A stretch of 64,000 bases of DNA, from positions 620,001-684,000 of the forward strand of contig CP073212.1 in NCBI GenBank assembly GCA_020342235.1, written 5' to 3'. Under the pieces are notes generated by a model. The model saw only the letters and a list, made by a program, of their open reading frames with translations, was not told where the DNA came from and ran no database searches. This stretch comes from Saccharomycopsis phalli. Lineage: Eukaryota > Ascomycota > Saccharomycetes > Ascoideales > Saccharomycopsidaceae. The position numbers and the translations under genes are program-made. The first letter of the stretch is position 1; every line of letters starts with the position of its first letter. Shown piece by piece: positions 1-59,537 of the stretch.

Positions 1-1089
1 AAGCTGTTTGTCGACTTGTTTGGCGAGGACTTGCCCAAGCCGGTTTCCCAGGCAGGGCATTCTCAGCCAATGGCTGCCCAGGGAATGGTTTCCCAGCCAA
101 TGCTCACCCAGCTGGCCTCGATTCTGGCTTCTCTGGCCTCGATTCTGGCTTCTCTGGCCTTGATTCTGGCTCCTCTGACCTCTCTGGCTCCTCTGACCTC
201 TCTGATCCTGACCTCTCTGATCCTGACCATGGCCCAAGGAAACCCCCTCTTGGACAAATCCTTGCCCGAAACACCCCTCGAGGAACTCGACTTGGACAAC
301 CCAGACCCCTTCCGGTCCCCTCCAGTGCTCCAGCACCTGTTCACCGCACCAGACACCCTCCCCAAGAAACCAGGCCCGGTGTCGAGCCCAGGCGGCTCCA
401 GCACCCCCTCCCCCCGCAAAGCGTACCCCACCGGCCTGCCCGGGGCCGCGGGTCACGTGCGCAAGGCGGGCGGGTTCATGAAGCTCGACCAGTTGACTAC
501 TTTGGAGGAAGGACAGGTTCTGCAGCCCGTGTCGGCGCCAGCGTCGCGCCTGCAGTCTCCAGGGGTGTCCCGTACCAAGAACTTGAACAACTTGCGCATC
601 GAAATGCCCAAACCCGTGCTTGAGGGACTCGAAGGACTCGGCATGCCGACAGTGCCGTCGCCCAATGGTAAGTCGCCGTTGGTCAACTCGTACACCAAGG
701 CCGACGTCAACTCGTACACCAAGGCCGACGTCAACCAGTTTGGCTTTTCCGGCAACGCGCCCAAGACAATGACGCCGCTCACGGAAAAGTCGCTTGAGTC
801 TGCCATGGCGCCGCTCATGGAAAAGTCATTCGAGTCCGTCATGGCGCCGCTCGACGACGAGGAAAAGCCACCGGCGGTGCCAAAGCCACCAGCCGCGCCG
901 CGCGACGTGCCGCATGAAGACGCCGACAAGCCGCTGGCGGTGCCCGTGGTGCCGACGCTCAACCCAATGGTGTTTTTGGACAGCACGCCCAAGGGGGTGT
1001 TGATTGACGAGTTGGAGAAGATGTTGGTTGGGTTTGCGCAGACGTTGGACATAATCCAGGGGGAGATGGATGTTTTGAATGGGGATTAG
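1..1089 (+). CDS. Unrecognised Ser/Pro-rich protein, C-terminal part (cut by window edge)
   Basis: The reading frame is open from the first base and ends at TAG 1087-1089, so the 5' end lies outside the window. I do not recognise the family. The visible 362 residues are mostly disordered. A low-complexity tract is encoded at 112-228, then come SP-type possible CDK/MAPK sites (SPRK, SPNGK), two tandem copies of NSYTKADV near 690-735 and imperfect PLTEKSLESAMA-like repeats near 775-850. The C-terminal 40 residues (LIDELEKMLVGFAQT...) look helical and could be a short coiled coil. The low-complexity tract holds 13 CTG codons: read as Leu it gives an odd Leu/Ala/Ile run, read as Ser an ordinary Ser/Thr/Ala linker. 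I see this as a real gene because of length and codon use, but no function can be assigned. Confidence 0.7.
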   Translation, partial: KLFVDLFGEDLPKPVSQAGHSQPMAAQGMVSQPMLTQLASILASLASILASLALILAPLTSLAPLTSLILTSLILTMAQGNPLLDKSLPETPLEELDLDNPDPFRSPPVLQHLFTAPDTLPKKPGPVSSPGGSSTPSPRKAYPTGLPGAAGHVRKAGGFMKLDQLTTLEEGQVLQPVSAPASRLQSPGVSRTKNLNNLRIEMPKPVLEGLEGLGMPTVPSPNGKSPLVNSYTKADVNSYTKADVNQFGFSGNAPKTMTPLTEKSLESAMAPLMEKSFESVMAPLDDEEKPPAVPKPPAAPRDVPHEDADKPLAVPVVPTLNPMVFLDSTPKGVLIDELEKMLVGFAQTLDIIQGEMDVLNGD

Positions 1090-7926: not shown

Positions 7927-10623
7927 TTACAACAATCGCCGAATCAACTGCGCCAATTCGCCGCCTCGGTCAAAGTAAACATCATTGATATTCCCATCGA
8001 GCCCCTCGACAGCCTGCTTGATCCGCTCGATATCACGTCGGTTTTCCTCCTGGCTCGCCAAGTCAGCAAACACACGCGACAATTGCAGCTTCAACTCCTT
8101 CATGCGAGCATCGGAGCCAACCTCCAGCGACTCGCCCGCCAACCAGTTCCAGATGCCCCTTTCTGTGTCCTCCTGTAGTCCCAGAAGCTTGCTTTCGTTC
8201 CCAAGGACGCTGAATACCGAGTTCCTGCTCAGCATTCGAGCAATCAACTGGAGCTGCTCTGCCTGGATCCGGTTGGACTCTTGCAACGCGCCAAAGATGC
8301 GGAGCTGGAGAAGCAACACCATGGCGACTGCAGAGAAGAGCAACACCGACAGCCAGTGGTGGCAAAGTACGTCCCACAAGGTCTTTTCAATCTCCTCAAT
8401 CTCCTCGTTGACGGTGGCAAGGTCAAATGTAGCAAGCGAGCTGGCCCGGTTGCGGGCTGCGCTCTTTTGCGGCACAAACACCGCCGGTGAGCCCAAACCA
8501 GTGACGGTTTTCTTGGCGGCGGGTTTCTCTTGCTGAAGTAATCGAAGCAACTCCTTTGCGGCGTCCTCCTGACCTCCCTTGCTGCTCTTTTCGATCATGC
8601 CCTTGATCCAGCTGCTGCCGGTCCAGTGTGTCCAGAAACTATATCGAAGCTTGGCTCTTCCGCCGGCGGCCCAGGCGGCAAGAAACCGTGTCTGGACCGT
8701 GAACGCCTTGCCGCTGGGCACGTTGGGCGTGGTGGAAACCAGGAGAAGATTAAAGCCCTGGTCCGGGTCGTCATCTTCAAGGGTCTCTATGGTGTAAACC
8801 ACAGTGGACAGCGGTCCAACCGCATAGTTCAACGCCTTGGTGTAGCTGTAGAACCGCTGTTTCTTGCCCTGCTGGAAATGTGGCACGTACACTGCGTCCA
8901 ACTCGGCCAGGTCCCACTGTTTGAACGGGGCAATTGGGGTTTCGTTGGACCCGCCGACGGAGCCCAAGAACTTTTTTTTGAACGGCACGCTGCTCACAAG
9001 AAGCTCTTTCAAGCTGCCGAGCGGCATGTCGAGCACTTCTTCCATGATGATTGTCTCTGAGCCGTCTTCCGGTGTAAAAGTGTACTCTGTCTCTGGGTGG
9101 GTCTCTGGGTCGCCCAATGGCTGTGGGGTGTCTGGCAGGCTTGTCACCAGCTCGTTGTCGTCTTCTGGGTCGTCCTCGTCGATGGACAATACCTGGTCCT
9201 CAAACAGCTGGGTGTCTAGGATATCGTTTGTGGGCTCAGTCTGGGGCTTGAGTCCTTTGAAGTAGTCTGGCTTGGGGGGCATTTTGTAGTTGAGCAAGGC
9301 CTCTTTGGGCACTTTAGGCTCGCTTCGCTCGTTTTTGGGCACTTTAGGCTCGCTTCGCTCGTTTTTGGGCACTTTAGGCTCGCTTCGCTCGTTTTTGGGC
9401 TCGCTTTGCTCGTTTTTGGGCTCGCCTGGCTGCAGATTATAATTATACTGTAGCCATATTGCATTGAGAAACTCATATGTGCTGTCGCGGCTGATAAACG
9501 TGGCGAAATTGTGCTTGGCGGTCTCGGTGGAAATCATAATCCCATTGGGAAACAAGCCCGCAGTGGAAGTCTTTTCAAACGAAGTAATCTCGCCAAGCGA
9601 CAACACCAAGTTGGTCACCCAGCCAAGGATGTTGGAGTTGAAGCACACGTACCCCTGCGACACGTAGAGACGGCCCTGGAGCAAGATCTCCCTCGAGAGC
9701 GCACACGAAAAGTCGTCAATGAGCCGGTCGGCCGGCACCACCGACTTGAACAAAAAGTGAAAGTCCTCGTTGCGCGACTCCGAGGCATAGTGGTACTTTG
9801 TGTCGCGCACCACGTCCTCCAGGTACAACTTCTTGTTGTACGACGGCGAGCGGCTCGATTCTGCCTTGGGGCTGTCGGTATCGACGTTGGACGTCTCGGA
9901 TATTTTCCGCGACCGTCGGCGATACGAGATGATCTTCGGCTGCTCATCAGCACCAGACTCCGCCCCAGACTCGTCGGCGGCATCCAGCTCGCCGTTTTTT
10001 TGCACAAGAAGCGTGTTGGCCGAGTTCCACACCGAGGTGAAGAACGACGAGTTGCGGCCCGGCGAGCCGTCCAAATCGGCCTCGATGTCGGCGAGACTCC
10101 GCCGGTTCCGGAGCTGCCGCTCCTTGGCCTGCTCCTTCTTCTCAAGCTCCTTGAGGTTGTCGTTCAACGACGGCGAAGGCGCATGCTTCTTGAAGCTGTT
10201 GCGCCGCAGTGCGGCCATCGGGATTCCGGGGTCGCCGAGCGTGGTCTCGGGGTTTGCCGGCGCCGATTTCAACACTAGCGGGATGCTGCTGGACTTGCCA
10301 TATGACCCGCTGTCTTCGTCATTGCTCTGGGGAATGTCAATTGGGTCGAGGAGGCTGTTGGCCAGATGGGGTTCCGTGGGTATTTGGGATTGCTCTGTGC
10401 GGTTGAAGTGATTATCTTGGGAATTGCCTGGTAAATTGCCTGGTAAATTGTCTGGTAAATTGCCTTTTGGCTTGCCCTCTTGCTTGCCTTTTGGGTTGCC
10501 TTCCAACTTACCATGATTCTCGTCGGATGACCACTCGGGCTCGGAATTATTGGCAGAGCTCCCGCCTGAGCTGTTCTCGTGTGCCTTTTTATCTGTCTCT
10601 GGTTTGCTCTCGGGATCAGACAT
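7927..10623 (-). CDS. LAM-family GRAM-VASt membrane protein (Lam5/Lam6-type sterol transporter)
   Basis: LAM proteins sit in the ER at contact sites and move sterol through their VASt (StARkin) domain. The 898-residue chain has a long disordered Ser/Pro/Lys N-terminus (1-270), then a GRAM/PH-like domain (about 285-390; RLIDDFSCALSREILLQGRLY and NSNILGWVT are typical). A linker with NERSEPKVPK repeats (410-440) follows, then one VASt domain (about 525-695; TPIAPFKQWD, FYSYTKALNY, WTHWTGSSWIKGMIE) and a single membrane segment at 757-778 (LSVLLFSAVAMVLLLQLRIFG). A ~120-residue tail with helical heptads would face the ER lumen in the known topology. One VASt domain and no BAR domain fit Lam5/Lam6 rather than Lam2/Lam4 or Lam1/Lam3; it is longer than S. 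cerevisiae Lam5/6 (~680) because of the N-terminus. The ATG at 10623 is the first in frame. Confidence 0.88.
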   Translation of the reverse strand: MSDPESKPETDKKAHENSSGGSSANNSEPEWSSDENHGKLEGNPKGKQEGKPKGNLPDNLPGNLPGNSQDNHFNRTEQSQIPTEPHLANSLLDPIDIPQSNDEDSGSYGKSSSIPLVLKSAPANPETTLGDPGIPMAALRRNSFKKHAPSPSLNDNLKELEKKEQAKERQLRNRRSLADIEADLDGSPGRNSSFFTSVWNSANTLLVQKNGELDAADESGAESGADEQPKIISYRRRSRKISETSNVDTDSPKAESSRSPSYNKKLYLEDVVRDTKYHYASESRNEDFHFLFKSVVPADRLIDDFSCALSREILLQGRLYVSQGYVCFNSNILGWVTNLVLSLGEITSFEKTSTAGLFPNGIMISTETAKHNFATFISRDSTYEFLNAIWLQYNYNLQPGEPKNEQSEPKNERSEPKVPKNERSEPKVPKNERSEPKVPKEALLNYKMPPKPDYFKGLKPQTEPTNDILDTQLFEDQVLSIDEDDPEDDNELVTSLPDTPQPLGDPETHPETEYTFTPEDGSETIIMEEVLDMPLGSLKELLVSSVPFKKKFLGSVGGSNETPIAPFKQWDLAELDAVYVPHFQQGKKQRFYSYTKALNYAVGPLSTVVYTIETLEDDDPDQGFNLLLVSTTPNVPSGKAFTVQTRFLAAWAAGGRAKLRYSFWTHWTGSSWIKGMIEKSSKGGQEDAAKELLRLLQQEKPAAKKTVTGLGSPAVFVPQKSAARNRASSLATFDLATVNEEIEEIEKTLWDVLCHHWLSVLLFSAVAMVLLLQLRIFGALQESNRIQAEQLQLIARMLSRNSVFSVLGNESKLLGLQEDTERGIWNWLAGESLEVGSDARMKELKLQLSRVFADLASQEENRRDIERIKQAVEGLDGNINDVYFDRGGELAQLIRRLL
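9300..9422. repeat. In-frame 30-bp coding minisatellite inside the LAM gene
   Basis: Three near-identical 30-bp units plus two shorter ones encode (NERSEPKVPK)n between the GRAM and VASt domains. Unit length is a multiple of three, so copy number can change without breaking the frame. Confidence 0.9.
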
Positions 10624-13277: not shown

Positions 13278-14612
13278 CTAGGCAATCAAGTTGTCAAACA
13301 ACACCGAGATACTCTCTCCATAATGGTCTCGGCGAATACACTCGGCAAACACCGGACTCACGTCCAACACCACGAGCTTGTCGTTATTCTCTATCGCCTC
13401 GCGCGGAATCGGATACGTGTTGGTCACCACCACCCGGTTGATGCACGGCGACTCCTGCAACTTCTCAAGACAGTTGTTGCTAAACACCCCGTGTGTAGCA
13501 ATGACATACACCTCGGTGGCGCCGCAGTTCAAGCGGCAGTGTTCGGCCGCGGCGATAAACGAGTTTGGCTTGTCGACCATGTCGTCCAAGATGATTGCAG
13601 CCTTGCCCTTGACGTCGCCGACAAGGGTGATCAACTTCTCCAGCCGCGTGACCCCGGACTTTTGCACCTCCAGGTCAAACGAGTACTCATAGTCGTCGTC
13701 ATCGTCGTCGGAGTTCAAGCTCAGCGAGTCGGCCTCACGGTTCGGGCTCGACGCCTCCGACACCTCCGACACCACCTCGATCTGCTCGATGTAGTCGTCG
13801 TCCACAATGTGGCCCTTGATGACTCTGGCGGTCTGCAACTCTGTGCTCAAGATCACATTCCCCGGGTCCTCGTCTTCGGCGATTGCGTCGTCGGAGCCGC
13901 CGACGGACGTCTTCCGAAGCATACTGACGTCGGCGGATTTCACGGTCAGGGACTGGCGGCGCTTGAGCAACTTGAGGCGCTTTTCCTGCTGCTGCTTCAA
14001 CGCCATGGCGTCGTGCGACCGGCGCCGGTCGGTGTGGATCATGGCGAAGTTGATCTTCAACTTGTCGGCCAACGCAGTGACCCGCTTCGTTCCCCCCGGG
14101 TTCTTGGACACCACCACCGCCTCCTGGTAGTTTGGCACGTGGTTCACGATCCAGTTCGCCAAGAGCGGCGCGCCGTACAAGTTGTCCACCGGCTTGGAGA
14201 AGAACCCTTGCATCTGCGACGCGTGCAAGTCCATCGACACCACGTGGTCCGCGCCGGCCATGATCAACAAGTTCGCAAGCATGCGGGCGGTGATGGCGCT
14301 CCGGTACTTTTTCATCTTGGACTGTTTTGCGTAGGGAAACTGCGGGATCACCGCGGTGATTTTCGACGCCGAGCCGCTCTTGCACGCAGAGATGAGTATG
14401 AGAAGCTCCATAATGTGGTCGTTGATCGCCGGCGAGCCCGACTGGATCACATAGACGTCCTCGTCCCGCACCGACACACCAATCGACACCGACGACTCAC
14501 CGTTGGCAAATTTCTTAAGAGTCGCCGGCGCAGGCTGCACGCCAAGCCGCTCGCAGACCAAGTTGCCCAACTCCGGGTGCGACGTTCCCACAAATATCTT
14601 GCACTTTCTCAT
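13278..14612 (-). CDS. PRS1: Ribose-phosphate pyrophosphokinase subunit (PRPP synthetase)
   Basis: The enzyme makes PRPP from ribose-5-phosphate and ATP for purine, pyrimidine, His and Trp synthesis. The 444-residue protein starts MRKCKIFVGTSHPELGNLVC, as fungal Prs1 does; in-frame codons upstream lack an ATG and hold no family sequence, so I place the start at 14612. Conserved blocks follow: FANGESSVSIGVSVRDEDVY, MADHVVSMDLHASQMQGFF-type sequence, VVSKNPGGTKRVTALADKL, the PRPP-loop region AAIILDDMVDKP and the C-terminal HYGESISVLFDNL. Between about residues 205 and 300 sits a non-homologous acidic insert (DDDDDDYEYSFD) characteristic of yeast Prs1/Prs5, which links PRPP synthesis to cell-wall-integrity signalling; MKC1 of that pathway also lies in this window. 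A TATA-like box sits at 14639-14646, 26 bp before the ATG. It is divergent from TFC7. Confidence 0.95.
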   Translation of the reverse strand: MRKCKIFVGTSHPELGNLVCERLGVQPAPATLKKFANGESSVSIGVSVRDEDVYVIQSGSPAINDHIMELLILISACKSGSASKITAVIPQFPYAKQSKMKKYRSAITARMLANLLIMAGADHVVSMDLHASQMQGFFSKPVDNLYGAPLLANWIVNHVPNYQEAVVVSKNPGGTKRVTALADKLKINFAMIHTDRRRSHDAMALKQQQEKRLKLLKRRQSLTVKSADVSMLRKTSVGGSDDAIAEDEDPGNVILSTELQTARVIKGHIVDDDYIEQIEVVSEVSEASSPNREADSLSLNSDDDDDDYEYSFDLEVQKSGVTRLEKLITLVGDVKGKAAIILDDMVDKPNSFIAAAEHCRLNCGATEVYVIATHGVFSNNCLEKLQESPCINRVVVTNTYPIPREAIENNDKLVVLDVSPVFAECIRRDHYGESISVLFDNLIA

Positions 14613-14820
14613 TGCTGCCGCCACATGAAATCCAGAGATTTTTATAGGCGCCCGAGCCCTGGCCAAGATCGGGCGGGGCTTCTGTGCAATCCGGGGTTGC
14701 CAAATGGCCCCCTCAAGAAAATGGTTTGCCAAGGGCGATGGACAAGAGCCCTGGTAAACGAGTACCCTGTCAGGGCTCCTATCACAACATCTTGATATTC
14801 CCACCATTAATCTTCACTCC
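14613..14820. promoter_or_regulatory. Divergent PRS1/TFC7 promoter
   Basis: 208 bp separate the two start codons. On the PRS1 side a TATAAAAA box (minus strand, 14639-14646) lies 26 bp from the ATG. The centre is GC-rich (GGGGTTGCC, GGGCGGGG). No clear TATA is seen on the TFC7 side. Confidence 0.6.
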
Positions 14821-29572: not shown

Positions 29573-31256
29573 TGGAAAGAAGGTGTGGTGATAGAAGGAC
29601 GAAGGTTGCATGTTTGTATTTTACAAGTTTAATAAAGTGCATATTTTAATGACACCGTAGTGAGTGGATATATCCTTGGTTTTTGTTTATAGATTGGCTG
29701 TTGGTGGGTATTATTTTGATGGTTACTTTTGCAATCCCTGGGGTTTTTAATACGGAATTTGATGTTGGATTTGGGCTTTGGTGGTGTGCTCTGGTTATTT
29801 TGAATTCAGTTGTGTATTGGGTTTTGATATAGATGCCAAGACTCTGCACCGTCATGTTTTACGATTTCACATGTTCTGATAATCAGTAAATGTGGATTCC
29901 TTCTCTTTGCTATACCTGGACGGAGGTCTTTAATGGTCACCAAATGTCTAGACGAAAGCACAATGCTTTGTAAGCCATATTTGAACTGACACTAGCCGGA
30001 AGTTTATCTTTACCTAGCCTTTTGGAAATTACATGGCGGTGCTGTCTTTTGTCGTAGACGTAAGGAATCAATCTTGTTGGAACCTAGAAAGGATAAAGCC
30101 TTGGGTAGATATTATTATATAGTTTGAGTAATGGAGTATTCTTGGATTTCGCAGCTACAAATTGCAGAAGTGTATAAATTGATGAAATGCACACTGTACT
30201 AGAGATTTTACTTCATGGCACCATTATGGCTGGTTCAAACTGTCAAAAAGGAAAGATCTAGTAAGTCCATTTTGTACAAAGAGAAAGGGTTTGCTTTTCA
30301 AGTATATTCAAGCGAATATATCTTGGCTGATACCAACACATGTTCTAGTTACTATATTACCTATGGTTAAACAGAAATTAGCTATGGAATTTAGCTTTTG
30401 AAATCAACTATGAAAATCAAAGAAGTGTAATACAATAAATAGGATACAAGTTGATAAGATGACTAAAATTCGCTTGATTATACTTGAAAATAAGACTCAT
30501 TTTCTGTCGAAAAGCCTCATGGTCTCTCAGGTGAACAGTTTCGAGTAGCCGCATGGTAAAATGATCAGAGTTTTGATTAGACGTCGTGAATGATTCAATT
30601 ATAAAATACCATATATTTTATTCATTTGGATGGGAATCTATGCAACTACAAAAGTCGACGTAAATCATGATAATACTCTATACTGTCAATGCCCAGCATA
30701 AACTTACCCTGCCATGTAGCAGGGCAACAAGAAGTGAAATGACCAAAAATATTTGCCGCTAGACAAGACATGTTTTGAATCAGAAGTAATTGATTTCAAT
30801 CAAGGATCCAGAGAATATGTGCAATGACCGCATGAGCGGACCAACAAAAGTACTCACTCAAAAGTACTCACCACGAAGTGGCGTCTCACAATGAGGTACA
30901 ATGACATAACACCTCAAAATGATACCACTTAAACAAGACAAGACCACTTGGACAATGATATTAACCAATACCTCAAGGCACCAATTAATAATGCCAGCCA
31001 ATAAGGCAACATTAGGCAGTGCTAACCAATAATTAAACAATAATCACAACCAACCACACCAATGATAAGACTAACCAATAATACCAACCATACCTCAAAC
31101 AATAACCTAAACCAATACCTAATAACACCATCAATGATATGAATCAATAATACCATCAATAATATGAATCAATGATATCATCAATAATACCATCAATAAT
31201 ATGAATCAATGATACCATCAATGATATCATCAACAACACAATCAATACCACAAAAA
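29573..31256. other. Intergenic between convergent genes; unique part with dispersed motifs
   Basis: 29573-30620 is mostly unique; no gene is seen. It holds GGAAGTTTATCTTTACCTAG (29998-30017, continuing CCTTTT), which recurs near 38841, and an inverted repeat pair 30294-30316/30468-30490. From 30880 to 31256 the DNA is short repeats of ACCAATAATACC and ATGAATCAATAATACCATCA, running into the HAC1 3' end. Confidence 0.55.
30294..30490. repeat. 197-bp segment bounded by 23-bp inverted repeats (MITE-like)
   Basis: Left arm TTTTCAAGTATATTCAAGCG plus AAT and right arm ATTCGCTTGATTATACTTGA plus AAA are reverse complements with one mismatch. No target-site duplication is obvious. The left arm motif also recurs, interrupted, at 7569-7613. 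It may be a miniature inverted-repeat element or a structured transcript. Confidence 0.45.
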
Positions 31257-31856
31257 TCACCCAGCTTTGCCATTTTTCAACGACATCATAATCATCACCG
31301 CATCCTCTTCGTCATCATCCTTCCGCTCATGCACGTCATCACTGTCATAATTCTGCTGCGCCCGAGGACTCATGAGCACAGTCACTTCGCTAAGCTTCTT
31401 CAAAGGCTCGTCTCGGCCAAACTGAGGTGCGGATGTGCTGGTGGGTGTCGTTGGGTTGCTGCCGCTGACACTAAAGTTGCGGTTCTGGCTGATCTTGTCC
31501 ACAATGTCGTGGAACTCCTTTTCATCGACCTTCTGCTTCCAAAGCGCAGTGATCAACTCGAGCTTCTGCTGACTATCGAGGTTCTGCTTCTCAAGAATGC
31601 TCCTGTGCTCGGAGTCCGCGGTCCGCAACCCCAGGATCATGTCTGTGAGCGAGCTCTCGAGGAACTCAATGTACTTTTTCTTCTTTTCCCTCAGAAGATG
31701 TGCTGCTCTTCGGTTACGAAGGATCCGTTCGATGCGCCGCTGCTCCTTCTCCTCCTTTGTCCGGGCCCGTTTCCGTGGCGGAAGCGTGCTGCCGATCACC
31801 CCCGCGTCGTTTGCCACCTGTGCGTTGATTTCGAGGCCACTTGGACTTTTCAGCAT
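31257..31856 (-). CDS. HAC1: bZIP transcription factor of the unfolded protein response
   Basis: Hac1 activates ER-stress genes; in many fungi its mRNA is spliced by Ire1. The near-identical family block LPPRKRARTKEEKEQRRIERILRNRRAAH is followed by a leucine-zipper-like helix. In the basic region CTG (complement of 31692-31694) occupies the invariant Ser of AAxxSR, so it must be Ser. The C-terminus is Ser/Thr/Pro-rich then acidic (DDDEEDAVMIMM). I take the third in-frame ATG (31856, 199 aa, MSKSPSGLE… with CUG as Ser) as start because upstream codons from 31937 and 31928 encode Arg/His-rich sequence unlike Hac1; the longer 226-aa form is possible. No regulated intron can be fixed: a CAGCAGA heptamer of the Ire1 type lies near the C-terminal end but without a clear stem. 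Unspliced form shown. Confidence 0.9.
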   Translation of the reverse strand: MLKSPSGLEINAQVANDAGVIGSTLPPRKRARTKEEKEQRRIERILRNRRAAHLLREKKKKYIEFLESSLTDMILGLRTADSEHRSILEKQNLDSQQKLELITALWKQKVDEKEFHDIVDKISQNRNFSVSGSNPTTPTSTSAPQFGRDEPLKKLSEVTVLMSPRAQQNYDSDDVHERKDDDEEDAVMIMMSLKNGKAG

Positions 31857-32519
31857 GGTGTTTGATGGAAGGAAAATTCGATGGCCAGCGTGGCGAATGC
31901 TCCTGTGGACGCATGCAGGATGACGCATGCGATGCATGGGTCTAGAAGCGAGGCACCGCTAAATTCCAGGGCGCTCGTTCTTTGGTTGGCGATTGTGGTG
32001 GTTTGTGTGAGTGTGTGAGTGTGTAGTTGTGCTGCTTGATTTTTGCTCGTCTTTTGTGCGGATCTCGTTACTTGGTGTATTATGTCAGCAGTAGTACCCA
32101 TGACGCAATGGTTAGAAGCATGCATCGTTGAAACTCTAGAATAATTGTTAGCAATAAACTAGAAGCTATAATGAACTAAAGTAACTGTAATGAACTAAAG
32201 TAACTGTAATGAACTTGAATAGCTCTAACATAGAATAGTCCTGGTTTGAATTAAGGCATTATGAATTCCTTTTCTATCTCTACGACTTGCCAAGTAGTCC
32301 AATGTTACTTACATTTCCATTTATAACGCACAATTCAGACGGAAACATTTCTGTACCGTCTAGCATAAATATAGCACCACTTCATTGACATTTCATTGAG
32401 TAAATTAACATTTCATGAGTAAATTAACATTTCATTGAGTAAATCAACATTTCATTGAGTAAATCATCAACACGCTTCATAGCAATGCCATTCCTACAGT
32501 TTAAACATATCATTATACA
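31857..32519. other. HAC1/POT1 spacer with overlapping upstream frame and 20-bp repeats
   Basis: Upstream of HAC1 a 91-codon ATG-started frame (minus, 31850-32125) overlaps the HAC1 start in another frame. It could be a long uORF limiting translation, or lie outside the mRNA. Near 32160-32215 there are GTAATGAACTAAAGTAACT copies, and at 32385-32465 about four copies of AACATTTCATTGAGTAAAT, just after the POT1 stop. Confidence 0.55.
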
Positions 32520-40113: not shown

Positions 40114-41676
40114 CTAGAGGACGTTTTGAGTGATAATCGGTGTTGTATCGGCGACGGAATCATCAGCTTGCTGTGATGCCTGGGGTCCGGCAATAGTGGT
40201 CAAACGAGTCACTGGTTTGGCAGTGACGATTGATATTGTATTATAACCATCTGATTCTGTGACAGAAGCACCATATGCCTGTGTAGAGGCGCTAGGAGCG
40301 TAAGCAGGATTGCTAGCAGCACTAGGAGCTGGGTAATAATCAGTAGCAGCTGGAGCACTAGGGGCTGAATCATAAGCAGTCGCAGCAGAAGCTCTAGAAG
40401 CAGAAGATCTAGAAGCTCTGAGACCAGATACAACCGCACTGGAATGAATAGCATAAGAACTAGTAACAGAAGCAACATAACCAGAGCTGCTAGGAGCAGG
40501 AGTAGAACTATAGCCATACGCAGTAGACGCAGAATCAGAGTCATATGCACTAGAATCATAAGTGCTAGAGCCATAAGCAGCGACATCAGACGAATAAGCA
40601 GAACTAGAACCGTAAGCAGAACTAGAACCGTAAGCAGAACTAGAACCGTAAGCAGAACTAGAACCGAAAGCACTAGAACCATAAGCAGAACCATAGGTAG
40701 AACCACTCGTACCAGATGGGGCAAGCGTCTGAGTAACTCTGCCATTTCCTCCAGTAGATTGAGAATTACCCAAGATCGACTTCAAGCCACTCAAGTACGA
40801 AGCTCCATTGGCAATATTCTTCGTACCTGTGACAGCATCCCAGACCATGAAACCACCAAAGTTGCCATGGCTCATGGCAGCCGAGGAAGCCTTTTTCACC
40901 ACATTCAAGTCAACATATCCTGAGCCAGCAGCACTGCTGGATCCTGGAAGCCCAATGTATAATTTCATGTTCTTATTGGAGAAGGAGTTCACCGAAGAGG
41001 CCCAGGTATCCCAGTTGAATTCCTTGTCCAAACTACAAGGGTTGTTGTAGAACTGGATAAAGGCAATGTCGATTTCAGAACCAGTGAGCGCATCACCAAG
41101 GTATGCGTCTGGGTAAACGCATTGAGGAGCCGACGAGACCAAGAATTTAGAACCAAACTTGCTCTTGATGGCAGACACAAAGGCCCCGTACCCAGACTTT
41201 TCGCCAGATTCAATGTCCAAGTCGATCCCGTCAACTTGGGCGATTTTCCCCGAAGACGACTTGAGAATGGTTCCAGAAGGTCCAAACAAGCCGTAGAGCT
41301 TATCAACAGAACCACTTACGTCGGAGGTGGACATGCCGTAGTTACCATCTGCCCCACCCATTGAAACGAGCACCTTGACACCAATGGATTGGCACTTGAT
41401 GATATCATCAGCCAATGAGGCACATCCATTACCTCCATCACCGCAACTCTGGGTGTTGGTTCCAAAGGTATAACTGATGCTGCTTCCATGGAACTGACTG
41501 ATGAACGAAACAATGACAATATCAGTGCTGGTGGCTTGACAATAAGTCCCCAAGTCCTCTTCGCCAGAACCCTGGCCCCAGTATACTGCGACGTTGTGGC
41601 CGTTGTTGTTGTACAGAGCAGAGCAGAGCTGCAAGCTAGTAAAAAGCACAAGGAAACAAGCTTTCAAAAACAACAT
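40114..41676 (-). CDS. Secreted GH18 chitinase
   Basis: Hydrolyses cell-wall chitin, probably at cell separation. The 520-residue protein has a signal peptide (1-20, MLFLKACFLVLFTSLQLCSA) and a GH18 domain (about 22-310) with SMGGADGNYG and the catalytic DGIDLDIE (149-156; Glu156 the proton donor). A Ser/Ala/Tyr-rich tail (about 315-480) holds SSAYG repeats encoded at 40590-40690. The tail is likely O-mannosylated. I see neither a six-Cys chitin-binding domain (as in S. cerevisiae Cts1) nor a hydrophobic GPI-attachment end; the chain ends ITQNVL, so it should be released or bound through the tail. It resembles the Candida CHT1-CHT3 family, but which member is unclear. A TATATATTT box (minus, 41712-41720) lies 35 bp before the ATG. 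Confidence 0.95.
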   Translation of the reverse strand: MLFLKACFLVLFTSLQLCSALYNNNGHNVAVYWGQGSGEEDLGTYCQATSTDIVIVSFISQFHGSSISYTFGTNTQSCGDGGNGCASLADDIIKCQSIGVKVLVSMGGADGNYGMSTSDVSGSVDKLYGLFGPSGTILKSSSGKIAQVDGIDLDIESGEKSGYGAFVSAIKSKFGSKFLVSSAPQCVYPDAYLGDALTGSEIDIAFIQFYNNPCSLDKEFNWDTWASSVNSFSNKNMKLYIGLPGSSSAAGSGYVDLNVVKKASSAAMSHGNFGGFMVWDAVTGTKNIANGASYLSGLKSILGNSQSTGGNGRVTQTLAPSGTSGSTYGSAYGSSAFGSSSAYGSSSAYGSSSAYGSSSAYSSDVAAYGSSTYDSSAYDSDSASTAYGYSSTPAPSSSGYVASVTSSYAIHSSAVVSGLRASRSSASRASAATAYDSAPSAPAATDYYPAPSAASNPAYAPSASTQAYGASVTESDGYNTISIVTAKPVTRLTTIAGPQASQQADDSVADTTPIITQNVL

Positions 41677-50911: not shown

Positions 50912-53900
50912 CTACACCCCCAATTCAGCACAGTAATATCCCTCGCCAAGCGGCAACTCACTCACCTTCAAATCATCATAAACCACCGCCTGCCCCGCAA
51001 CATACTTTGCCATGACCTTCACAGCAACACCAATCTCCTCATTGAGCTTCACCACCAACGGAAGATGGATCACCAAGTTCTTCACCAACGACCGCACAAT
51101 ATCCACATCAAGGTTGCCACGCACCAACATGGCATAGTGCTTATACACCCCCAAGTTCTTGGACCAGTCTGGCAAGCGTTCCAGCTGCTCAATCTGCCCG
51201 GGAAATCGGCCCAAGAGCCGGAGAAGCTTGTCGAGCATTGCCCCGCCTCGGATAACCGAGATTGGTGCGACTTTGCTCACCATAACTGAATATGCCTTGC
51301 TCCAGTCTTGCGCCTTGAAAAGCGCATCGGCCTCGTTAACATAGTCTCCAAGATAGTGGTACCGCAATGCCACTGCCGACGCCATCAACGTTTCTGGAAC
51401 CTTGAGTCTTTCGACAAGGAATCGGTACTTTTCCGGCACAATAAGCCCATCGATCCGGGTCTTGACAAGCCGCGAAACATGGCACAAGGCCACCGAGTCG
51501 TTTGCAACGTGCATGTGGACAAATAGCGCCTCTTCCCAAAGTCCACAACACGCCAATTGCTCGGCAAATTGCAACGTGAGAGTGTCACCAAGAGTCGACG
51601 AAAAACGTTGTCCAGAACGCACAAGAACCTCGCAAACGTACCAGGCAATCCGAACATCCACACCACGAGCCAATCGCATCAAACAGCCATCAATCAAAGC
51701 CCCACTGCTCTCACTACTCACCACTTGAACAAGTGCCAACTCAGGGCATAACGTCACGTGACAAGGCACCACGTGATATTGGAAGAAGGCAGCGACGATT
51801 TGTGGTAACGACGTCTGGTCACCAAAGCAAAGGAGCATGTATAGTACTGTTTGCCAATTGAGCCCGTCGACAACGTCTGTGCCAAGAAATTTCCCTGAAA
51901 GTAGCCTGTAGATTTTAAGAATCGGCGACGGCACGTGACCTTCCCAGGCGGCGATCTGCCGTTGGGCGCCAAATTTGACATTGGCGTCGTTTGAGCCAAG
52001 AAGTGATATGAGAATCGCTAGGTGGTGGTTATTGGAGCGTTTTGCTGCGTCGCTAGCCGCACTAATCTGATTTGTCGCCGCAAGAGCAAACACCTCATCC
52101 AAGGGCTCGTAACCCGGGGGTGCGGTCACGTGAGGCATTAACCATGACTGGAGAAGTTGGTTTCTTGCGAGTTGGATCAAGTGGGTTTTGTAGACTCCTT
52201 CGTTGACGGACGCAATCTCGGAGTATTCTGGCGATTCGAGTATTGTATTGTCGTCAAACAAGATCGATGCCAACTGCCAGAGCAGTTGTTCGCACGTACC
52301 TTGGAACTCGTGCGCAAGCAATTCAAAGCGGAAATCAGGGTTTGGCTGGGCAAACGGGATGCCATTGGGCCGCGACAGTACCTGGGATCGGCCAATGTGG
52401 CTTCGGAACACTGCCTTGATTCGAGGCAAGTTGTCTTTTGTCATGCCAAACAACGTGTCCACATGTCCTTTGGTAAGCGACAGCAGGTTCACACGGTTGG
52501 TAAGCAACAACTGGCCCAGCACACGGTCCCATTTTCCCGCAAACCCCTGCTCGGCACGTCGTTCTGCACGGGCACTTTCCTCACGAGCAATTGTCGCATT
52601 GAGGTCGCCGAAAATTTCCTCGTCCAACGACACGGGCTTCACAGACTCAGCATAGGGGTATTTGGGGATCCGCAGCGACACCTGGGCCTGGATTTGCGGG
52701 TTAAACACCGACGACATACGGTCGGCAGCATCAAACGCAGCTTCCCACGAGACATCTGGCTCGTCCAGGATCGCCGAATGGGCCTCGAGGATCTGGAAAT
52801 CGCGCTCGGTGACGTTTTCAGGCTCGCAGGCCTTTTCAATGAGGCCTGGCTGGTCAATGTCGTCAATCAGATCGAGGTACATGCTCTCTGAGACGTCACT
52901 AGTTTTGGAGGAGTCGGATGCGGGAATGAGGGCCTGGATGTTTTCCTCTGGTTCTAGATCAAATTCCTGGGCGTTGGATGGTTGTTCCTTTTCCACGGTG
53001 AACAATTGGTCCTTTTCCACGGTGAACGATTGGTCCTTGTCGACAATCAACAATTGGTCATTTTCATCGTCGTCAACCATCGAGTCTTGATCAATATCCA
53101 CAAAGTTCCATCCTCCAGGGATTCCCCATTGGGATTTCACAACCTTGTCGTTCCGCTGTGATTTCGGTTCACTCAGAGTGTCTTTTGCTTTTCGTTTTTC
53201 TCTGCTCTTGGCCCCCTCTTTTCTCTGTTTCTCTTGAGCCACTTTATTCTCTCGAGCCACTTTATTCTCTTGAGCCACTGTATTCTCTTGAGCCACTGTA
53301 TTCTCTTGAGCCACTGTATTCTCTCGCTTCTCTTTTTCTTGTTTAATCACGCTATTCTCTTGCTTCTCTTTCACTTGCTTCTCGTCACCCTTTTTCACAT
53401 CATTCCCATCCATATTAACATCCTCTTCCTCACTCTCCTCATCAAGCAATCCCCAAATACTAAAATGCGTCACCTTGAAACTCCAAATCCCGCCATCGGC
53501 AATGTACGACACAAACTCCGTGTCCTTTTGCCGCTTCAACAATCCCATATACTTGCTAATCACATCCACCGCCAATCCGTCGCTGTTCTCTTGTCCTTTT
53601 GGATACATCCCTTCCAAAGTGATTATCGCATCCACATTCACTCCTTGACCAACTGGCGGCTTCTGCGACTCATCAGGATACACCAGGACAATCGCCCGAC
53701 GGAATGAAATCATTTCCTCGTTCAAAAGACTGTTGCTGAGATTCAATTTCACCGACTGCTGCCCATTGACCCGGCTAAATGGAACAAGGTCCACAGCCTC
53801 CAAAAACGCAATCTGCCCATATCCTTTCCGCCCAACAATAAAGTCCCGCACGCTACTCAACTCAGACACCGAGTACTCACTCAATTTATCAATCGATGGC

Positions 53901-57551: not shown

Positions 57552-59537
57552 CTACAGCTTCTTGGCCAACTTCAACACATTCTTGGCCGACTTCAGAATA
57601 GAAGGACAATAATGATTCACCAACAACGCATTTTCCCAAATCGTCGCCGCCTCCGGATTACTGCGATTCGGATGGTCGGCATCCATCACAAACCGGCCGT
57701 TTTCCACTCGGTCATCCACGTCAAATAGCCCCTTAATCTCCGGAGCCTTGTCGAGAAACTTCCGCATGAAATTCACAAGCGTAAGCGTCGGCTTTTCCGT
57801 GGTGTTGAGCATGAGCATGTACAATCGCTTGGTAAAAGCCAAGTTGCGGGCCCGGACTGTGCCCTTGGACTTGAGGAAAATTGTCTCCAAAGTACGCACA
57901 AGAAGCTTCATGGACTTGGTGATCTCGTCATCGGACGAAATGTCCAACATGATCGAGTACAATACATCAATGAACTTACTCATGTCCACTGCGACCTTGT
58001 ACGACGATACGAGTGTGAACGAGGTAATGATGCAAAAGAGAATCTGCTTCACCCGATGGTCGGTCAACTGTGGCTCGTCCGAAATGTCGGCCATCAACTC
58101 CTTCAATACCGCAAGAAAGTCGCCAATCAACTCAACATTCGCCATGAAGCCGTACTTTGCCAATCCCTCAAGCACTGTCGCCATCAAATGGTCGTTGCGC
58201 GTCTTCAAAATGTGCAAATAGTTTGCCAACACAATCTTGAGTATCTCCGCTTGGTTCTGGTCCCGCTCCTTTTGCGAAACCTGGAGCTCTGCCACCCGCA
58301 TCTCCTCTTCAATGACTTTCCGCTCTTTGATCGCCTTCCGTTCCTTCTTTGACCGGTGAACCCGGTCTTTTTTCTTGATCTTCACGGTCTCCGGCTTCTC
58401 GCCTTGCGGATCATAGTCCTCCAAGATACTCAACGAAAGATACAAGCCCACCACGTCCTTATTCACCATGTACTTCCGCTGCTTCAACACACGTGACACA
58501 CTCCGGCACACGTCCAACGACACTTTTCCGTACGTTGTATCCTGCTCAAGAACCTCTCCAAGAATCCCCACCGTCGTCTGGAAAAGTTCCACCTGCGCCT
58601 GGTTCTCAGGATTCCGTGGGATTGCACCTTTGTACTTGCAAACAAACCGCACTGCAACTCCCAACAAGTCCTCCACAAAATTAAAATGCCCAGCAAACTT
58701 GATGAGCTGCCCAACGGCTGTGATCGAAGCCCGTGCCATTACTCCATCGCTCTTGGAGTACTTTACCAAAATGTTCACGTACGCCTTGTAGTTGGCAAGC
58801 AATCCCTGTTCAAATGCTCGTAATCGGGAAATGTCCTTGGTGACCTTTTCCTTCTTCTCTATCTCGGTCAATGGCCGGATCCGGTACCCAGGAATGATGC
58901 TTTTCAACACATGCACAATCGCCAATAACGAGTATCGGGCTGTGACTAGATTCTTGCTCTCTGACATCTTGCGCAATCGAGAGAGCGACAGCATGTTTTC
59001 CTCTGGCTGCTCGATGATTTTCTCCACCATCTCGGCAATGTCTTCTTGCAATTTGACGAGTTTCTGTGACTCGGTGAGGTTTTCTGGAGAAGCGTACACT
59101 TCGTCTTCCAGCTCTTCTACCTCTTGCTCCGGCTCTTTTTCGGGTTCCACCTCTGGCTCTTCCTCAGACTCTTCCTCGTCGCTTTTCTCTTCAATGATTC
59201 TCCTCTGCAATCTACCTTCTTGGGTTTTGATGGGTAAACCTTCCAGAACTTTTTTATGTGTCAAGCTTCTAGGCCGATTTTCATAATCCTGTTCTTGATT
59301 TTCCCAGTCAGATTCGTCTTCGTCTTCTTCTTCTTCTTCTTCTTCTTCTTCTTCTTCCTCCTCTTCTTCTTCTTCTTCCTCCTCTTCCTCTTCCTCTTCT
59401 TCATTTACAGCCTCTTCTTCCTCTCCCTCTCCCTCTTCCAAAACATTTGAAAAACCCCCAGATAAAAGCTTATCCTCCTCCAATCTCTGCTTCTTTATCT
59501 TCAAAGCTCCCTTACTCTCACTCTTTCGCTTCCCCAT
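57552..59537 (-). CDS. NOC3: Ribosome biogenesis / replication factor Noc3
   Basis: Noc3 with Noc2 accompanies pre-60S particles from nucleolus to nucleoplasm; in S. cerevisiae it also affects replication licensing. The 661-residue protein is almost the length of yeast Noc3 (663). It has a basic start (MGKRKSESKG), a poly-Glu run of about 35 residues (near 40-75, encoded by GAA/GAG repeats at 59320-59410), another acidic stretch and then the helical Noc3/CBF domains (ARYSLLAIVHVLKSIIPGYRIRPLTEIEKKEKVTKD is the Noc3 N-terminal signature; GLAKYGFMANVELIGDFLAVL and RRTFIKRL-like FTKRLYMLMLN later). ATG 59537 is used. Confidence 0.95.
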   Translation of the reverse strand: MGKRKSESKGALKIKKQRLEEDKLLSGGFSNVLEEGEGEEEEAVNEEEEEEEEEEEEEEEEEEEEEEEEEEDEDESDWENQEQDYENRPRSLTHKKVLEGLPIKTQEGRLQRRIIEEKSDEEESEEEPEVEPEKEPEQEVEELEDEVYASPENLTESQKLVKLQEDIAEMVEKIIEQPEENMLSLSRLRKMSESKNLVTARYSLLAIVHVLKSIIPGYRIRPLTEIEKKEKVTKDISRLRAFEQGLLANYKAYVNILVKYSKSDGVMARASITAVGQLIKFAGHFNFVEDLLGVAVRFVCKYKGAIPRNPENQAQVELFQTTVGILGEVLEQDTTYGKVSLDVCRSVSRVLKQRKYMVNKDVVGLYLSLSILEDYDPQGEKPETVKIKKKDRVHRSKKERKAIKERKVIEEEMRVAELQVSQKERDQNQAEILKIVLANYLHILKTRNDHLMATVLEGLAKYGFMANVELIGDFLAVLKELMADISDEPQLTDHRVKQILFCIITSFTLVSSYKVAVDMSKFIDVLYSIMLDISSDDEITKSMKLLVRTLETIFLKSKGTVRARNLAFTKRLYMLMLNTTEKPTLTLVNFMRKFLDKAPEIKGLFDVDDRVENGRFVMDADHPNRSNPEAATIWENALLVNHYCPSILKSAKNVLKLAKKL

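Follow-up and report, generated by a model that had tools for sequence, protein, structure and literature searches.

A CTG codon very probably read as serine in the basic region of a HAC1-like bZIP gene of Saccharomycopsis phalluae

The CTG codon and the gene that holds it

In a stretch of 64,000 nucleotides of Saccharomycopsis phalluae DNA, hereafter the window, a CTG codon stands in the basic region of a bZIP gene at the place where the DNA-contacting motif NxxAAxxSR has its Ser. We asked whether this codon is read as Leu or, as the original prediction proposed, as Ser. Two features are concerned.

31692..31694, minus strand: CTG codon at the bZIP basic-region Ser site, here read as Ser (sequence and computed position)
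31257..31856, minus strand: HAC1-like bZIP gene, 199 aa counted from the ATG at 31856

The predicted position of the codon was exact: positions 31694-31692, read on the minus strand, are CTG and lie inside the bZIP basic region. The enclosing ORF covers 31257..31937 (minus strand), another in-frame ATG being present upstream, at 31937. Around the codon it reads KEEKEQRRIERILRNRRAAHL[CTG]REKKKKYIEFLESS, and the basic region is RNRRAAHL[CTG]REKKKK. The gene contains three CTG codons, namely codon 2, codon 55 (the bZIP site) and a third within the zipper (DMI[CTG]GLR); the first and the last are uninformative on the choice between Leu and Ser. Its product scores above the Pfam cut-off for bZIP_2 (22.6 bits versus 22.3) and below that for bZIP_1 (20.2 bits versus 27.6). 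Among the five alignments with PDB chains that were listed, the residue facing the CTG is Ser in four and Cys in the fifth, a CREB chain. Imperfect TATTGATGG-type direct repeats are found immediately 3' of the ORF, at 31121-31247 of the window.

The Ser of this signature had been described as invariant among bZIP factors, and a Leu in its place as unprecedented. A bZIP_1 profile search of the genome gave 11 matches including the window gene, and the signature could be read in nine of the ten others, where the residue is Phe in five, Cys in two and Ser in two; this tally omits L103 (genome C2:1402600-1402950), a bZIP_1 match in which the signature search gave no NxxAAxxSR-type motif. The position is thus not invariant. 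As for Leu, it occurs in none of the nine readable bZIPs, although Phe and Cys are found there besides Ser.

The gene had moreover been taken for HAC1 itself. However, a second gene of the genome, on contig C6 and one of the two with Ser in the above tally, also possesses the Hac1 block, and its equivalent Ser codon is TCT.

L106 1431-2345 (genome C6:979800-983600), minus strand: C6 HAC1 gene, in which an Ire1-type intron of 77 nt is predicted; 315 aa when spliced, ending NPAAPATIFDIDDFVLFE
31650..31790, minus strand: STLPPRKRA..AAHLSREKK..EFLESS block common to the C6 HAC1, 47 codons

The two genes have the same codon at 18 of these 47 positions, a synonymous one at 22 and a codon for another residue at 7, among which the CTG/TCT pair is counted. 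At the level of sequence comparison, 22 synonymous versus 7 residue differences suggest that the block is under purifying selection. The residue beside the CTG site is Leu (CTT) in the window gene and Ala in the C6 paralogue.

A first scan for Ire1-type sites, using stems of 4 pairs and a looser loop, returned none in either gene. The second used a tighter loop, CNG^CNGN, and 3-pair stems, the stem having been lowered after inspection of the C6 sequence by eye. With these settings the C6 gene shows exactly two loops, located at the end of the ORF and 77 nt apart, for 0.33 sites expected from shuffling, and splicing at both predicted sites would produce the new in-frame tail given above. The window gene has no CNG^CNGN site with a stem of at least 3 pairs (0.145 expected from shuffling). 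For comparison, the Ire1-spliced HAC1 introns reported from CTG-Ser1 yeasts measure from 19 to almost 850 nt (PMC6222058). Because a pair of such loops around an intron is the arrangement of an Ire1-spliced HAC1, the C6 gene is most likely the canonical HAC1. The window gene has in common with HAC1/XBP1-type bZIP regulators the Hac1-type basic-region block (STLPPRKRA..EEKEQRRIERILRNRRAAH.SREKK); it differs from them by the Ire1-type splice-site pair, which is predicted in the C6 gene and was not found here. Rather than HAC1, it is probably a HAC1-like paralogue devoid of the splicing switch.

Transfer RNAs for the codon CUG

The original prediction had singled out tRNA-Ser(CAG) as the gene to be sought in the genome, and the search returned three: L046 (contig C3), L051 (C5) and L055 (C7), all with a Ser body, a long variable arm and G73. 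Their anticodon region reads CCGCC-CACAGA-GAAATTTGTT-A-GGCGC. Nuclear tRNA introns lie between positions 37 and 38, and the CAG anticodon depends on an inferred 10-nt intron being placed there; with these boundaries, the mature loop would be C32 A33 C34 A35 G36 A37 A38. C32 then has a possible pairing partner in the third-last base of this putative intron, as is expected of tRNA introns. Two oddities of the anticodon region are A33, at a position where tRNAs usually have U33, and a C27-C43 mismatch. The acceptor stem of L046 has CTGTATC for CTGTGTC in the others, a change that turns a wobble into a Watson-Crick pair. ARAGORN, by locating the intron elsewhere, called the three genes Thr(TGT); this call was rejected because the body is of Ser type and intronless Thr(TGT) genes exist in the genome.

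The mature tRNA-Ser(CAG) was compared with the tRNAs of the same genome. Its identity is 68/82 to Ser(GCU), 62/81 to Ser(CGA) and 53/82 to Ser(UGA), and 49/82 to Leu(AAG) and 48/84 to Leu(UAA). tRNA-Ser(GCU) would thus be the closest candidate for its origin, as has been reported for the tRNA(CAG) of the Ser2 clade, described with A37 (Krassowski et al. 2018, PMC5951914). For S. schoenii and S. fermentans, a Ser-type tRNA(CAG) with G37 and without G33 is reported (PMC6508603); S. phalluae likewise lacks G33 and differs from them by its A37. Searching the genome with 17 bases from the anticodon arm of the C. albicans tRNA-Ser(CAG) was uninformative, with 23 matches, all with 3 mismatches, versus 38 for a control pattern.

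Is there also a tRNA that could insert Leu at CUG? The 20 matches to a Leu-type A box were all read, and their anticodons are AAG (5), UAA (3) and CAA (12). A pattern leading from the D-arm to a CAG anticodon matched, over the whole genome, the three Ser-type genes only. These pattern searches thus found no tRNA-Leu(CAG); tRNA-Leu(UAG) was met once. A Ser-type A-box pattern (up to 3 mismatches) had 53 matches, of which 30 were scanned for the anticodon, and 63 of 806 candidates received a score in the Rfam tRNA search. A 2024 study by O Cinneide is said to describe a tRNA-Leu(CAG) as retained by most Saccharomycopsis, and S. phalluae would differ in this from most, although not all, species of the Ser2 clade, which keep a Leu-type second tRNA(CAG).

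It is in this light that an ambiguous decoding of CUG, as Ser with some Leu, should be weighed. The Ser2 clade has been described as late in the code transition, and the retention of tRNA-Leu(CAG) attributed to most of the genus would fit such a state. In proteomic data of S. schoenii, CTG was found as Ser in peptides of 450 proteins and was mapped to Leu in 13 (PMC6508603). In addition, the tRNA-Leu(UAG) seen here might wobble. However, every Leu-type A-box match has another anticodon than CAG, the CAG pattern leads to Ser-type genes only, and the number of tRNA(CAG) genes, two in S. schoenii and two in S. fermentans, is reported to be one in S. fodiens (PMC6508603). From these pattern searches, we consider ambiguous decoding very improbable in S. 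phalluae.

CTG sites in protein alignments and codon usage

The bZIP codon had been presented as the strongest single-codon evidence of the window. A single site is weak when taken alone, and the case is carried by the tRNAs, by the species and by an alignment of several sites. For the latter, the window homologues of NOC3, NUP145, PRS and LAM/YSP2 were translated with CTG as X and aligned to solved structures, and the HAC1 paralogue pair was added. Four sites that face Ser in at least one structure are listed here.

57594..57596, minus strand: NOC3-like CTG, facing Thr (6elz), Ser (8esq) and Arg (8i9v)
51182..51184, minus strand: NUP145-like CTG, facing Ser in the Nup145 of 8tie
8809..8811, minus strand: LAM/YSP2-like CTG in the VASt domain, facing Ser (YSP2, 5yqi) and Gly (LAM4, 5yqj)
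8740..8742, minus strand: LAM/YSP2-like CTG in the VASt domain, facing Ser (YSP2, 5yqi) and Gln (LAM4, 5yqj)

Ten CTG sites were counted. Their partners are V, E, A and T in NOC3, E, N and S in NUP145, S and S in LAM/YSP2 and S at the bZIP site, that is to say Ser at 4 of the 10 (one of them being the intragenomic paralogue pair itself) and Leu at none, with one Val among them. At the other Leu codons of the same alignments (n=126), the partner is Leu in 73 and one of L, I, V, M or F in 101; at the Ser codons (n=96), it is Ser in 38. A hydrophobic partner is less frequent at CTG than at the other Leu codons (Fisher p = 1.3e-5), and no difference between CTG and the Ser codons was seen (p = 1). 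When BLOSUM62 scores are summed over the counted sites, Leu is 17th of the 20 residues and Ser the first, a rank that Ser keeps if the bZIP site is removed.

Not entered in the count were a weak first Nup145 stretch (i-Evalue 0.64, six CTG codons), two Nup145 blocks and two blocks of the LAM homologue that contain no CTG, NOC3 against 8esq and 8i9v, the LAM homologue against LAM4, and near-identical repeat alignments. The partners in these uncounted alignments are Y, S, H, S and D, V, G, R for NOC3 and G, Q for LAM4, and those in the weak Nup145 stretch N, A, P, N, P and one gap; no Leu occurs in either set. PRS gave no site because its four CTG codons all fall outside the aligned stretches. 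In this ribose-phosphate pyrophosphokinase homologue (13278-14807, minus strand), they are all held by a long insertion between the two aligned parts.

The usage of CTG was less informative as to its meaning. In a test based on the neighbouring context, CTG has a mean log ratio of -0.02, between Leu (-0.195) and Ser (+0.139), and neither neighbour hydropathy nor neighbour composition separated Leu from Ser for this codon. The window has 115 CTG among 1100 Leu-box codons. In uL3, COR1 and QCR2, which had been chosen for taxonomy before their codons were looked at, there is no CTG beside 97 other Leu codons, for about 10 expected at the window rate; as these genes are conserved and probably highly expressed, this shows that CTG is avoided, not what it means. 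Five window genes have 0 CTG out of 175, a figure without evidential weight because they were picked for having none. Two ORFs without Pfam match are worth a mention: one at 70-1089 (plus strand) has 18 CTG codons and may not be a real gene, and a Ser-rich one of 520 residues at 40114-41676 (minus strand) has 100 Ser codons (43 of them TCT) besides a single CTG, an adhesin-like composition.

One could nevertheless suppose that CUG is still Leu and that the bZIP site is a true Leu in a diverged HAC1-like paralogue. Such a paralogue could drift, and the adjoining residue also departs from that of the C6 gene. Furthermore, since Phe occupies the position in 5 of the 9 readable bZIPs of the genome, a bulky hydrophobic side chain could stand there as far as structure alone is concerned. 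Against this stand the three tRNA-Ser(CAG) genes and the failure of the pattern searches to find a tRNA-Leu(CAG), the absence of Leu among the partners of the ten counted sites, the purifying selection suggested by the paralogue comparison, and the reading of CTG as Ser in the congener S. schoenii (PMC6508603). A true Leu is in our opinion even less probable than an ambiguous decoding.

Species, genetic code and outlook

The published assembly of S. phalluae has 14,148,124 bp in 8 contigs (largest 2,335,166, N50 1,822,654, N90 1,540,684, GC 43.55%), and the species, described with a disease of a cultivated mushroom, is placed next to S. fodiens on a distinct branch (PMC8468998). S. phalluae is a Saccharomycopsis, hence within the Ascoideales and the CUG-Ser2 yeasts, a clade described as sister of the S. 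cerevisiae clade (PMC5951914).

Protein comparisons were made with chains that we take to be from S. cerevisiae (6giq, 3j6x) and C. albicans (7rja, 7pzy). COR1 scores 396 bits versus 6giq and 374 versus 7rja, and QCR2 291 versus 249 bits with the same two entries. For uL3 the scores are 723.7 with 3j6x and 723.8 with 7pzy, the top scores being those of two K. lactis chains. No match to the ATP-sulfurylase family was found in the genome, and 5 of 14 control genomes have one; this absence agrees with a genus in which species are reported to be without sulfate assimilation.

Altogether, we estimate at about 0.97 the probability that the window is nuclear DNA of S. phalluae, a CUG-Ser2 yeast, in which CUG is read by a Ser-charged tRNA-Ser(CAG) derived from tRNA-Ser(GCU), with Ser in the bZIP basic region as a result. 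The proposal that CUG means Ser is supported by the three tRNA-Ser(CAG) genes, by the pattern searches that found no tRNA-Leu(CAG), by the TCT of the paralogue and by congener proteomics, CUG-Ser peptides having been published for S. schoenii, S. capsularis and A. rubescens (PMC5951914, PMC6508603). The decoder would be this GCU-derived tRNA-Ser(CAG), whose Ser-type body, with a long variable arm and G73, would let it be charged with Ser. With CUG-Ser2 decoding, the CTG at 31694-31692 would therefore put into the HAC1-like basic region the Ser that completes the NxxAAxxSR DNA-contact motif, spelled TCT in the C6 HAC1. In this scheme we infer the Ser charging, the mature tRNA sequence with its intron boundaries and the use of the codon in the living cell.

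Comparison with the known codes leads to the same clade. With CUG-Ser2 of the Ascoideales, S. phalluae shares, as far as that code is described in PMC5951914 and PMC6508603, the Ser meaning of CUG, a GCU-like tRNA-Ser(CAG), the A37 of Krassowski et al. and relatives on the S. cerevisiae side. With CUG-Ser1 of the Candida clade it shares the reassignment, a G73 Ser tRNA with a CAG anticodon and an unusual position 33; the Ser1 tRNA, in what is described of it, differs by its UCN-type parent, a nearly universal G33 and a mostly present G37, whereas the tRNA here is GCU-like with A33 and A37. Ser decoding and a GC content near 44% fit several Ser1 yeasts, and a Candida-clade placement suggested by GC near 45% was considered, but it was dropped on the COR1 and QCR2 scores, higher to S. 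cerevisiae, with uL3 no higher to C. albicans, and on the GCU-like tRNA without G33 or G37, which leave a Ser1 genome the least probable of all the readings. The CUG-Ala code of Pachysolen and its relatives differs in that the three CAG tRNAs found here are of Ser type with G73, not of tRNA-Ala type.

The CUG-Ser2 code is already known for the Ascoideales, and in this respect our finding is correct but ordinary. The bZIP CTG site, the paralogue and the tRNA details of S. phalluae were not found in the literature by searches that were not aimed at Saccharomycopsis HAC1.

A more speculative idea, which we regard as doubtful, has two parts. The switchless HAC1-like paralogue of S. phalluae may act outside the Ire1 switch with a DNA-binding residue spelled by a reassigned codon, so that its motif would be present only in a CUG-Ser cell. 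In addition, the purine 33 of tRNA-Ser(CAG), which recalls the G33 of the independently evolved Ser1 tRNA, might hint that both reassignments were accompanied by a distorted anticodon loop.

What the Ser2 clade gains here is a further CUG where a Ser is functional, together with a species in which no tRNA-Leu(CAG) was found, although the clade mostly retains it. There is also a practical consequence. The main text of the genome paper, in its available part, contains none of the words "codon", "CUG", "CTG" or "genetic code" (PMC8468998), and for this reason the public protein models of S. phalluae may carry Leu at CUG sites, as in the standard code. Translation table 12, with CUG as Ser, is the one to use for the genes of this assembly.
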